From Paenibacillus sp. FSL K6-3182 (GTDB taxonomy: Bacteria > Bacillota > Bacilli > Paenibacillales > Paenibacillaceae), in contig NZ_CP150265.1 of assembly GCF_037976325.1 (NCBI RefSeq), forward strand, positions 1,607,501-1,671,500: DNA of 64,000 nt. Direction: 5' to 3'. Each line of letters begins with the position of its first letter. The stretch's first letter is position 1. Shown piece by piece: positions 53,929 to 57,848 of the stretch. The notes beneath the pieces were generated by a model. That model saw only the letters and a list, made by a program, of their open reading frames with translations. It was not told the DNA's origin and searched no databases. The position numbers and the translations under genes were made by a program.

Positions 53929-54426
53929 CTAGCTTTCTAAATCTTCTGTTTTTGTATGCACGCTGTCTTCTTCATTATCTCGAATGGTCTTTTGCAAAAC
54001 GAGGCAAGAAACGATTAAGAAAGCACCGGCAATCGCGTAGTAGCCTTTGACATAAAGCGGCTCCTCTAGCGTGTAAATACCTATATATTGAGCGAGAATA
54101 GCAATGATAAAGCCAGCCCAAGCCATGAACGAAAAAGCGGGTGTATTGCGGCTTCTGTAGCCCGGGTTGTAGTCTTTGAGAAACTTATCCTCGTCATTGT
54201 CGCGCGCAACCTTCTGCAGAAGAAATGAAGTGATAATTAAAAGTATGCCGGTTACAGCGTAATACCCTTGCACAGACATTGGCTGTTTAAGCGTGTAAAT
54301 ACCGATGAATTCGAAGCCACATGCTATAAGAAAAGCTGCCCAAGCCATGAAGGTATATGTTGGGGTATTGCGGCGGCGATAAAAATTTGCTGGTTTGCGT
54401 ACTTGCATCGTTTCCATTTTTTCCAT
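53929..54426 (-). CDS. YiaA/YiaB-like membrane protein with internal duplication
   Basis: 165-residue protein made of two homologous halves, each RNTPT/A-xxFMAWAxFxIA...GIYTL followed by KGYYAIxGxxLIxxxxLQK-x-RDNxED. This is the YiaA/B two-helix domain repeated twice, giving four membrane helices. GGAGGC precedes the ATG. Function of the family is unknown. Confidence 0.85.
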   Translation of the reverse strand: MEKMETMQVRKPANFYRRRNTPTYTFMAWAAFLIACGFEFIGIYTLKQPMSVQGYYAVTGILLIITSFLLQKVARDNDEDKFLKDYNPGYRSRNTPAFSFMAWAGFIIAILAQYIGIYTLEEPLYVKGYYAIAGAFLIVSCLVLQKTIRDNEEDSVHTKTEDLES

Positions 54427-54535: not shown

Positions 54536-54564
54536 TTGACAATGAGAATGGTTATCATTAGAAT
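54536..54564 (+). promoter_or_regulatory. Fur-controlled promoter of the AraC gene
   Basis: TTGACA at 54536-54541, a 17-base spacer and TAGAAT at 54559-54564. The spacer holds TGAGAATGGTTATCA (54543-54557), 13 of 15 matches to the Fur 7-1-7 consensus. Confidence 0.75.
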
Positions 54565-54690: not shown

Positions 54691-56640
54691 GTGGAGTGGA
54701 ATGATCTTATTAGGCTTTGGAACCACGCCTCAATTAAGGTGTTGGATGTTCGTCACCATAGGATGAAACTTGGCGATAGGCTGCAATCCTACCGTCTTCC
54801 AGCAAGCGGATTCTTATATACGACTATTGGCAGCGCAAATGTATGTTTGGACGGTCATCTATATAAGGCGGAGCGATTTCATGTACTGCATGGGGGCAAA
54901 GGAATGTGCTTGGATATAGACAGGCTGGAGGAGAATTTTGATTATTACTTAATCTTCTATAAAGCACTTATTCCGCATCCTTGCAGGCAAGAGATTTTAT
55001 CACTTATTGAAAATAACAACCCGTTCCATATGCAATATGGCTTCGCCCCGCAATACCCGATCCCACTGTTTCGAATGGTTAACGTAATGGCACAAGAGTG
55101 GCAAATATCGCATTCTTTGGAGAGGTTTCATGTCAATACGTTATTTCATCAATTTGTTTATGAGGTATTCATTCAGCTGCAAAAGCAAGATGTATCTCTA
55201 TCGAAGCCCGACCTAGCAGCACAAGCGCTTCGTTATATTCATGATCATTATATGGAGCCGATTACGCTTGAGCAGTTGGCGCAGGCCTTAAGCTATAGCG
55301 CCAAAAACTTGTCCAAGGTGTTTAAAAAGGAAACAGGGCATAGTCTCATTGATTATGTCATTCAGGTGAGAATTGATCATGCGAAGGAGCTAATGAAAAA
55401 TACGAGCGCGACCATTCAGGAAATTGCGGAAAGCGTTGGTTATTCCGATCGCTTATATTTTACACGGATATTCAAAAAGGTTGCTGGCGTTTCTCCAGGT
55501 AGGTTTAAGGACAGTTTGAAAAATACTAGAAGCGGCGCAGATCGTCTATATAGATCGAGCCGATCGTCCATTGTTCCAGGGAGGCTCCGGCGTTACAATG
55601 TGTATCGTTATGATAATCATTATCAATACAAAGGAGAGAATCAATTGCCCATGTACAAAGGATTGAAATTATCAATGGCAGCAACCCTGTTGTTTTGTTT
55701 TGCTTTATTTATGAGTGCATGTTCTACGGGGACGTTAAATACAAATACGGCAACCGTGGAATCAAAATTAACGACGAAGGGGGAAGCAGCTCCTTCCAAT
55801 AAGCCGCAAACGGAAGCTCAGACTAGAGTAATCACAACGATAAAAGGTGATATCGAAATTCCTTCGCATCCCGAACGGATCGTTGTTGATCTGTACTTGG
55901 GCAGCTTTATTGCACTAAATGTTAAACCAATCGGAACGCCAGAATTGAATTTGAAAAATCCGTATTTTTCAGAGGCGCTTGCAGGTGTGGAGAATATTGG
56001 AGAATACGAGAGTGTATCGCTAGAGAAAATAATAGATTTGCAGCCGGATATGATCGTTACAGGAAATGAAGCAGCTTATGAGCAGTATAGCAAAATTGCT
56101 CCGACGATCGTTGTTCCTTATGGCGAACTAAAAAATACGCATGAAGAATTGACCTATTTCGGCAAATTGTTAGGGAAAGAGGCAGAAGCGGAAGCATGGT
56201 TAGCTGATTACGACCAGCGTATTGCAGCAGCCAAAGCAAAGGTTGAAAGTATTATTCCAAGCGATGCTGTGTTTTCAGTCATGCAGGATTGGGGAGGGAA
56301 TACGGGCGTATTCGGCGATAATTTCGGCAGGGGCGGACAAGCAGTCTATCAAGCACTTGGACTTAAGCCGCCAGCTAAAGTAGCGGAGCAGCTGATGAAG
56401 GAGCAAATTGTTGAGGTTTCTGGAGAGAAGCTGTCTGACTTTGCAGGGGATTATATTATATTAACGTCTGATACGCTAACGCTAGCAGATTTGAAAACCG
56501 AGCCGATCTGGAAGCTGATTGATGCAGTTAAAAATGATCGTGTCTATATTTGGAGTAAGGAACGCTCATGGTATTTTGATCCGATTGCTACGCTATCACA
56601 GACAGAGGAACTAGCTAATTGGCTCGCAGGTGCGAAATAA
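54691..56640 (+). CDS. AraC-family regulator reading in frame into an iron-siderophore-binding lipoprotein
   Basis: A single 649-codon frame with no internal stop. Residues 1-~285 are an AraC regulator (cupin-like N-terminus, helix-turn-helix pair near 180-275: LEQLAQALSYSAKNLSKVFKK, GYSDRLYFTRIFKK). Residues 321-649 are a FhuD/FecB-type binding lipoprotein with its own signal peptide and lipobox (MSAC) and PERIVVDLYLGSF, DLQPDMIVTG. The joining 35 codons contain a complete promoter and a perfect Fur box. The expected reading is two genes whose separating stop codon is missing; the C-terminal part is also started separately (see 55651). AraC-SBP fusions do exist (Btr type) but those lack an internal signal peptide. 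GTG start with GAGGAG upstream. Confidence 0.8.
   Translation: MEWNDLIRLWNHASIKVLDVRHHRMKLGDRLQSYRLPASGFLYTTIGSANVCLDGHLYKAERFHVLHGGKGMCLDIDRLEENFDYYLIFYKALIPHPCRQEILSLIENNNPFHMQYGFAPQYPIPLFRMVNVMAQEWQISHSLERFHVNTLFHQFVYEVFIQLQKQDVSLSKPDLAAQALRYIHDHYMEPITLEQLAQALSYSAKNLSKVFKKETGHSLIDYVIQVRIDHAKELMKNTSATIQEIAESVGYSDRLYFTRIFKKVAGVSPGRFKDSLKNTRSGADRLYRSSRSSIVPGRLRRYNVYRYDNHYQYKGENQLPMYKGLKLSMAATLLFCFALFMSACSTGTLNTNTATVESKLTTKGEAAPSNKPQTEAQTRVITTIKGDIEIPSHPERIVVDLYLGSFIALNVKPIGTPELNLKNPYFSEALAGVENIGEYESVSLEKIIDLQPDMIVTGNEAAYEQYSKIAPTIVVPYGELKNTHEELTYFGKLLGKEAEAEAWLADYDQRIAAAKAKVESIIPSDAVFSVMQDWGGNTGVFGDNFGRGGQAVYQALGLKPPAKVAEQLMKEQIVEVSGEKLSDFAGDYIILTSDTLTLADLKTEPIWKLIDAVKNDRVYIWSKERSWYFDPIATLSQTEELANWLAGAK
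55571..55625 (+). promoter_or_regulatory. Fur-controlled promoter inside the AraC/lipoprotein frame
   Basis: TTGTTC at 55571-55576, 17-base spacer, TACAAT at 55594-55599, and a perfect 15-base Fur box TGATAATCATTATCA at 55611-55625 just after the expected start. The lipoprotein gene should therefore be iron-repressed on its own transcript. Confidence 0.85.
55651..56640 (+). CDS. Iron-siderophore ABC transporter binding lipoprotein (internal start)
   Basis: 330-residue product beginning at ATG 55651 (TTG 55645 is possible) after AAAGGAGAG at 55630-55638. It has a basic signal peptide, lipobox MSAC, and a FhuD/FecB-type helical-backbone binding domain. This frame is nested in-phase inside the longer AraC frame at 54691. 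No matching FecCD-type permease or ATPase genes lie in the window. Confidence 0.85.
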   Translation: MYKGLKLSMAATLLFCFALFMSACSTGTLNTNTATVESKLTTKGEAAPSNKPQTEAQTRVITTIKGDIEIPSHPERIVVDLYLGSFIALNVKPIGTPELNLKNPYFSEALAGVENIGEYESVSLEKIIDLQPDMIVTGNEAAYEQYSKIAPTIVVPYGELKNTHEELTYFGKLLGKEAEAEAWLADYDQRIAAAKAKVESIIPSDAVFSVMQDWGGNTGVFGDNFGRGGQAVYQALGLKPPAKVAEQLMKEQIVEVSGEKLSDFAGDYIILTSDTLTLADLKTEPIWKLIDAVKNDRVYIWSKERSWYFDPIATLSQTEELANWLAGAK

Positions 56641-56711: not shown

Positions 56712-56769
56712 TTGTCACAATGTGGATGGTATCCTAAACTTTAATAAGTGATAGTGATAATCAATATCA
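56712..56769 (+). promoter_or_regulatory. Fur-controlled promoter of the FNR gene
   Basis: TTGTCA at 56712-56717, a 17-base spacer, TAAACT at 56735-56740, and Fur box TGATAATCAATATCA (56755-56769), 14 of 15 matches. Confidence 0.8.
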
Positions 56770-56807
56770 AAAATAAATTGATCATGACTGACGTTTGGAG
56801 GCAAACG

Positions 56808-57848
56808 ATGAACGAACAATTGGAACTCTATGATGTAACGATAATTGGTGGTGGCCCAGGTGGGTTATATACCACTTTCTATAGCGGCATGCGCGATTTA
56901 AAAACGAAATTAATTGAAGCGCAGGATCAACTCGGCGGGCGAATGCTCACTTATCCTGAGAAAATTATTTGGGATGTAGGCGGGGTAACACCGATTCGCT
57001 GCGAACAATTAATTGCGCAATTGATCCAACAAGCCAAAACCTTTGATCCGACGATCGTGCTCGGACAGCAAATTACGGACTATGAACGATTGGCTGATGG
57101 AACATTTATGCTGACTTCATTAACCGGCGAGAAGCATCATACAAGAACGGTCATTATGGCAATCGGTTACGGAATAAAAAAATTAGCGAAGCTGGAGATT
57201 GAAGGGGCTGACCGCTATGAGGTAACGAACTTGTACTATACCGTACAGGAGCTGGAAAAATTCCGCGATAAGCGAGTGCTCATTTCCGGCGGCGGCGATT
57301 CCGCAGTAGACTGGGCTAATGAGCTGGAATCCATTGCAGCCAGCGTAACGGTCGTGCATCGCCGCGACAGCTTCGGCGGGCATGAAAGAAATGTTTCCAG
57401 GATGAAACAATCCTCAGTAAATGTTCTTACGCCTTATCAAGTGCTTGCGCTTCATAGCAGTAATGGGGAAAGTATCGAGAAGGTAACGATTGCACATATG
57501 GAAACGGAGGAAAGGAAGCAGATTGAAGTCGATGCTGTCATCGTCAATCATGGAATGAAGAGTGATTTTGGGCCTATCCGTGATTGGGGTCTTGATATGG
57601 GAGTATGGAATGCAAACGTTGGGGAGCGGATGGCTACTAATATTCCGGGCATCTTCGGCGCAGGCGATTTCGCTAGCTTTGGCAGCAAGGTTGGACTTAT
57701 TGCAGGAACGTTCACGGACGGCGTCTTGGCACTCAACAGCGCGAAGCTGTATATGGATCCGGAAGCTCCAGAGATGGCTTATGTTTCTTCTCATAACGAG
57801 CGTTTTAAGGAGAAAAATCGGGAGCTTGGCGTAGTAGAAGAAGAATAG
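56808..57848 (+). CDS. Ferredoxin-NADP reductase type 2 (YumC-like)
   Basis: 346-residue thioredoxin-reductase-like flavoprotein lacking the active-site CxxC. FAD motif [26 protein letters not shown] motif [11 protein letters not shown] and C-terminal [13 protein letters not shown] precedes ATG 56808; an ORF start 60 bases upstream has no binding site. Its Fur box and place next to a siderophore-binding protein suggest a role in reducing ferric siderophore or flavodoxin during iron limitation. Confidence 0.92.

Follow-up and report, generated by a model that had tools for sequence, protein, structure and literature searches.

The frame at 54691-56640 (+) opens with a GTG start codon and runs through 649 codons without a stop, first across an AraC-type regulator and then, beyond a linker, across a signal peptide with lipobox and a siderophore-binding protein (SBP). 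The first-pass annotation left two ways to account for a membrane-targeting signal in mid-chain with promoter-like sequence ahead of it: loss of a stop codon by this strain, or a single DNA sequence that encodes a fused sensor and, in addition, a free-standing lipoprotein. Which of these applies to the frame, and what the arrangement might do, are the questions considered here (the window, below, is the whole stretch of 64,000 nucleotides that was analysed). Judged from its sequence and that of its relatives, the gene probably joins an iron-uptake regulator with a siderophore-catching protein under its control, in a layout that is kept by many related bacteria.

Parts of the reading frame

The predicted protein parts are:

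54691..56640 (+): whole frame, full-length AraC-SBP protein of 649 aa (open frame and domain matches)
54691..55542 (+): AraC regulator part, with a predicted beta-rich N-terminal domain (residues 14-93) and an HTH domain (residues 175-284) (Pfam, AlphaFold2 model)
55651..55719 (+): putative internal start, ATG 55651 (alternative TTG 55645), and signal peptide, residues 321-343 (alignment, in-frame ATG count)
55720..56637 (+): predicted mature siderophore-binding lipoprotein, with lipobox Cys344 (55720-55722) and a FhuD-like fold from residue 378 (Pfam, model, fold matches)

The uninterrupted frame of 649 codons for an AraC regulator and a FhuD-type lipoprotein, as originally described, is confirmed by the open frame and its Pfam domains. 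HTH_18 scores 75.4 bits in the AraC part (cut-off 33.6), which has the two-HTH DNA-binding domain of AraC/XylS proteins, and Peripla_BP_2 scores 97.3 bits in the C-terminal part (cut-off 27.5). The length of the linker, some 35 to 45 codons, varies with the end assigned to the HTH domain (its last helix reaches residue 284); the 35 codons first counted stand as the lower figure. An AlphaFold2 model of the 649-residue protein (mean pLDDT 82, pTM 0.45, 61 sequences) places the beta-rich domain at 14-93 and the end of the HTH domain at 284. Between there and the SBP fold, which begins at 378, confidence is low in the linker and again behind the signal peptide, inside which residues 330-342 form a helix.

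The nearest solved sequence to the SBP part is that of B. subtilis FhuD, and FhuD and FhuD2 are among its best fold matches. The signal peptide is, by motif, of the FhuD-type lipobox kind, with the lipobox MSAC ending in Cys344, which is invariant in 61 aligned proteins; Met321 is retained in at least 90%, and 115 of 123 genes have an ATG in frame between Fur box and signal peptide. By domain, fold and lipobox the SBP part is a predicted FhuD-type siderophore binder, resembling FhuD-type lipoproteins in sequence, fold and lipobox but differing in being fused in frame behind a probable regulator. An internal start with its Shine-Dalgarno stretch, in the same frame as the long product, constitutes, at the level of sequence, a nested gene. 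Homologues that carry a name in their source are labelled simply as AraC regulators or as substrate-binding proteins, and come from a list confined to proteins near the query in length, which biases it toward an all-fused appearance.

Btr (YbbB) of Bacillus likewise combines, in a single chain, an AraC HTH with a FeuA-like siderophore-binding domain behind it. Btr regulators, however, have no signal peptide and a cytoplasmic SBP, whereas the window gene has a lipobox signal peptide and a predicted promoter between its two parts. The NCBIfam Btr model scores 116.9 bits on the window protein, against a cut-off of 900; this, together with the signal peptide, upholds the contrast with Btr-type fusions that had been drawn. 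One study (PMC3896406) places ybbB upstream of feuA, a Fur-regulated uptake gene adjoining the regulator.

Conservation of the fused joint

A search with the AraC part, in which an SBP was not required, matched at least 34 of 118 genomes of the family (E 1e-45), 100 of 246 genomes of the order (1e-40) and 40 of 398 genomes of the class, the last falling into five families by the tool's own labels. The main set consists of 132 distinct AraC genes from 34 genomes (drawn from 30 of the family loci, 100 fetched stretches and loci of the window's own genome, with matches below 110 bits dropped). In this unselected count the joint is read through in 129 of the 132; the others are L034, with an early stop, L136, with AraC alone and an SBP fragment behind it, and L060, which is split at the joint. 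Such an alignment of relatives, in search of a stop between the domains, had been proposed at the outset. A lipobox lies in frame in 125 of the 132, and the fusions L011, L045, L113 and L146 have no signal peptide. The window genome has ten fused genes, nine lipobox fusions and L011, and accounts for 10 AraC-part matches among the matches listed.

The same joint is found in a same-species genome, in an orthologue at 97%, and in others at 89, 79, 73 and 73%. With the joint retained family-wide, in this orthologue and in nine lipobox fusions of the strain's own genome, a stop codon lost in the window strain, or a sequencing error, is scarcely credible and is rejected.

(Several subsets are used below. 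The 123-gene set holds genes chosen for an in-frame lipobox together with a Fur box, and its lack of in-frame stops follows from that choice. Repeat, upstream-promoter and shuffled-linker counts refer to 84 of the 123, left as representatives after thinning by similarity. A second set comprises 23 loci from other genomes of the order; the class-level set is 11 of 13 new loci, two from the window's own family having been left out.)

A 745-residue homologue (P0110) has the joint duplicated in tandem, with Fur-box peptide, signal peptide and lipobox each occurring twice, and at L052 (G114:C1:5046971-5052000) two fused family genes lie close together on the same strand.

Predicted regulatory sequence written in codons

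The joint of the AraC-SBP frame looks like a complete promoter written in codons. Two direct half-sites 22 bp apart are followed by a -35 element, 17 bp, a -10 element, a Fur box, a Shine-Dalgarno stretch and a start:

55537..55548 (+): first putative half-site, GCAGATCGTCTA (direct repeat; conserved in orthologues)
55559..55570 (+): second putative half-site, GCCGATCGTCCA, 22 bp further along and abutting the -35 (direct repeat)
55571..55599 (+): predicted promoter P2, TTGTTC, 17 bp, TACAAT (motif and conservation)
55611..55625 (+): predicted internal Fur box, TGATAATCATTATCA, codons GAT AAT CAT TAT CAA (14/14 match)
55630..55638 (+): predicted Shine-Dalgarno stretch, AAAGGAGAG (motif and conservation)

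The -35 and -10 elements, Fur box (14/14) and Shine-Dalgarno site that the first-pass annotation had placed in the linking codons are all there; the AraC-type direct repeat at 55537-55570 and a second Fur-box promoter at 54536-54564 (see below) are additions to it. Allowing up to two mismatches, the window has 4 Fur-box matches, of which two overlap, where 0.60 would be expected. A Fur box of at least 11/14 occurs at the joint, in a single codon phase, in 123 of the 125 lipobox-bearing homologues (the two without are L130 and L147). The -10 element is also in a single codon phase, in 121 of 123 genes, so that its distance to the Fur box varies by multiples of three; the spacer between -35 and -10 is 17 bp in 111 of 123. 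Open frame, in-phase Fur box and lipobox recur together in 23/23 loci of the second set, and all 11 class-level loci, from other families, have the in-phase Fur box (two of these, L230 and L236, are without a normal signal peptide). The same codon phase in 123/125 homologues and in 23/23 loci of the second set puts the elements of the joint beyond chance.

Constraint on the DNA is seen in synonymous divergence: both bodies, AraC and SBP, stand at 0.73, the -35 at only 0.23 and the centre of the Fur box at 0.011; the operator stretch gives 0.34-0.45, and values climb again to 0.56 in the spacer (230 pairs out of 327 candidates, from 100 genes, the pairs being non-independent). The dip spans codons -25 to +19 around the Fur box. 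Between the window gene and four orthologues (73-89%), synonymous divergence is 0.65 and 0.63 in the two bodies, 0.16 over Fur box and Shine-Dalgarno, and 0.19 over residues 276-293, the stretch that holds the operator. D, N, H and Y codons of the Fur box end in T in 427 of 436 cases, against 304.7 expected. This constraint on -35, -10, Fur box and start, and a repeat at exactly 22 bp, speak against an inactive P2 with the full-length fusion as sole product, which we regard as very improbable.

A second layer of constraint concerns the frame itself. The linker's two other frames contain stops in 97/123 and 123/123 genes, dinucleotide-shuffled linkers would be expected to be open in 15.9 of 84 cases, and 21 different linker lengths occur among the 84 representatives. 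Frame retention and constraint on the internal-promoter DNA support the earlier suggestion that the same DNA may encode a fused sensor as well as a free-standing lipoprotein, and the window joint can be taken as a clear case of regulatory DNA and protein linker in the same bases.

L060 (G092:C10:57700-62724) is a natural split: its frame changes between -10 and Fur box, and AraC ends in a stop that overlaps the start of the lipoprotein; both parts are intact and the promoter elements remain. Judged by this gene, the fusion is not indispensable everywhere. Survival of L060 in this form would also suit a long protein that is a by-product, or of which only the AraC part matters, the frame being open for ribosomes traversing P2 or for translation coupling; so would fast change of the linker at the protein level, with pN/pS about 1 in residues 276-293. 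But read-through in 129/132 genes with so many linker lengths exceeds what coupling needs, and relatives that have no signal peptide still have AraC and SBP fused, making this explanation quite unlikely.

The direct repeat at 55537-55570, just 5' of the P2 -35, looks like an AraC-type operator. At a lag of 22 the mean best match in the 84 representatives is 8.32/13, and 45 of them reach at least 9/13 (39 stay under 9); at other lags the mean lies between 3.2 and 5.4, and no more than 3/84 reach 9/13. In a control region 240 nt upstream, lag 22 reaches 9 in 1/84. Since 22 is not a multiple of three and the control region gives only this one case, origin of the repeat from a peptide repeat is rejected. 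The second set agrees (lag-22 mean 8.3, with 10/23 reaching 9 and other lags 0). Lag 22 is best in 7 of the 11 class-level loci and another lag in 4, and of two Brevibacillus genes that share the layout only L223 has the lag-22 repeat. Half-sites of the same gene match each other at 7.51/13 and those of different genes at 5.99 (76 of the 84 representatives; 0/5000 permutations as high), a difference that would be expected were each regulator to recognise its own operator. In a genome-wide pattern search the only exact match to the window's half-site pair was the pair itself; at two mismatches three places were found, one in a paralogue at 298048, against 1 for a reversed control pattern.

At araBAD, AraC binds a pair of directly repeated half-sites spaced by roughly two turns of the helix, of which the closer lies at the -35. 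The putative operator in the window gene is likewise a direct pair with its nearer half-site at the -35, but differs in its 22-bp period and in lying inside the regulator's own frame, ahead of a predicted promoter for that frame's second half.

A candidate circuit and its alternatives

Ahead of the frame is another predicted promoter:

54536..54564 (+): predicted promoter P1, TTGACA, 17 bp, TAGAAT, with a Fur box at 54543-54557 (12/14) between the hexamers (motif and homologues)

An upstream Fur box of at least 11/14 is found in 97/123 homologues, against 8/123 shuffled (26/123 are without one); among the 84 representatives, 62 have it and 47 of those 62 also have strong hexamers. The 22-bp repeat was not found at this upstream promoter (lag 22 mean 5.1, 2/62 reaching 9). 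A P1 without repeat, and a P2 with weak -35 plus repeat, suggest that P1 would serve the sensor and P2 the lipoprotein, that the sensor would be the activator, and that Fur would switch both.

What the sequences suggest, with reasonable probability, is one gene with two products, forming a self-contained siderophore-uptake circuit inside one reading frame. P1, under Fur control, would yield the full-length AraC-SBP protein, which would sense ferric siderophore through its SBP part; its AraC part would then bind the direct repeat that lies close behind the sequence coding for its HTH, and activate P2. With its Fur box, P2 would fire only when iron is short, giving the SBP alone as an exported lipoprotein, plus permeases where these follow. 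Open frame, predicted promoter, repeat, Fur box, start and lipobox are conserved by comparison; production of both proteins, binding of the repeat by the AraC part with activation of P2, and sensing of the ligand we infer. Counting against the circuit are the 4/11 class-level loci with another best lag, the 39/84 representatives under 9/13, the split in L060, L130 and L147 with no Fur box at the joint, the 26/123 homologues without an upstream one and, as described below, the 21 signal-peptide-less fusions with no SBP nearby and the 16/94 lipobox fusions with a further one. FecCD permease pairs lie directly 3' of 4/10 fused genes of the window genome, and at those four the short product is likely to be the binding protein of the FecCD transporter; the window gene has no permease behind it. 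The genome has 5 Fur-family genes and 1 LspA gene.

The least certain part of the circuit is the location of the full-length protein, for which we lean slightly toward tethering in the membrane, AraC inside and SBP outside. It might instead resemble Btr, the full-length protein being soluble in the cytoplasm and sensing imported siderophore, while the mid-chain signal peptide serves the separate lipoprotein only. The L192-type and Btr-like relatives without signal peptide are AraC-SBP fusions of a similar kind, and a tree puts their SBP domains within the lipobox family, but the hydrophobic helix of the joint and its conserved lipobox should drive membrane insertion; a soluble protein seems rather unlikely, if still a serious contender. 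Alternatively the long chain could be a polyprotein that is inserted, lipidated and cut by LspA at Cys344 into a membrane-bound AraC part and a lipoprotein, to which P2 adds further lipoprotein. The invariance of Cys344 and the single LspA gene accord with such processing, but the P2 product alone fully accounts for a conserved cysteine, and we consider cleavage unlikely, somewhat more so than a soluble sensor.

Relatives without a signal peptide bear on how the parts are shared out, since such a fusion cannot itself supply the lipoprotein. In one set, 11/11 of these genes (in six L192-type genomes, and L113, L146, L237, L238 and L239) have a separate lipoprotein gene nearby, at L237 1804 bases off with another gene between, and at L239 884 bases off, also with another gene between (the L239 frame has only 212 codons). 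No SBP gene was found within 1.5 kb of L198 and 20 Btr-like signal-peptide-less fusions, and the proposition that every such fusion has an adjoining lipoprotein gene is only partly true, with these 21 as exceptions. Among lipobox fusions a further SBP within 2.2 kb downstream is absent in 78/94 and present in 16/94 (94 of the 123 genes, the other 29 having too little downstream sequence to judge). All six L192-type loci have repeat, -35, -10, weak Fur box and Shine-Dalgarno between the fusion and lipoprotein genes; the repeat before the separate lipoprotein has lag 22 in five of them and 23 in L197, is outside the top repeats of L113 and is doubtful in L146. L199-L214, L217, L218, L220 and L221 form a signal-peptide-less AraC-SBP lineage 34-40% identical to the L011 protein, and Btr-like genomes have one match per genome among the matches listed at the cut-off used.

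In the SBP tree (unrooted, with long branches and 11 rows of unusual composition) signal-peptide-less rows stand in three places among lipobox fusions. Six Btr-like rows form one clade beside the lipobox fusions L007 and L049 (97/88), and the L146 fusion is sister to its neighbouring lipoprotein (100/88). That each such fusion is sister to its own neighbouring lipoprotein was considered and rejected, the L192 and L113 lipoproteins branching separately. Because the root of the tree is not known, loss of the signal peptide is only inferred.

A wider reading is offered tentatively, as a possibility below even chances: that a transmembrane siderophore receptor may itself be a DNA-binding regulator, in widespread single-gene circuits that carry a private operator together with the promoter of their main target; that this target would be the outer half of the receptor itself, set free as a lipoprotein through the second promoter and perhaps also by lipoprotein signal peptidase; and that loss of the signal peptide might turn such proteins into cytoplasmic sensors of the Btr-like kind, leaving a separate gene to provide the lipoprotein. 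If so, one genome would have about ten private, self-addressed uptake circuits, regulator-operator specificity could be studied over many natural pairs (each operator being readable from its own gene), and there would be a testable route by which Btr-type sensors may arise.

Membrane regulators of the CadC/ToxR type have a DNA-binding domain, one hydrophobic helix and an extracytoplasmic-type domain. The order of parts in the AlphaFold2 model would fit this type, with the difference that what would be the outer domain of the window protein doubles as a predicted transport protein, for which a promoter and a lipobox of its own are present in the sequence. The short forms of IF2 and ClpB come from in-frame nested genes with internal starts. 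The window gene is comparable in having one frame and two predicted products with a common C-terminus; unlike these, it would make its short form from a separate promoter under Fur and AraC control, the long form being the probable activator. A literature search (titles and abstracts, most subscription papers lying outside its scope) found the arrangement described nowhere.

The next gene, 56748-57848 (+), encodes a flavoprotein resembling thioredoxin reductase (92.3 bits to Pyr_redox_2; TRX_reduct, at 139.2 bits, stays below its cut-off), and two Fur-box matches, at 56749 and 56755, overlap there. In B. pumilus a ferredoxin-NADP reductase, an HTH regulator and a substrate-binding protein, each of them Fur-regulated, have neighbouring locus numbers, according to the study cited above (PMC3896406). 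The divergent neighbour on the other side, 53929-54426 (-), encodes a YiaA/B-type membrane protein (PF05360, 86.9 bits).
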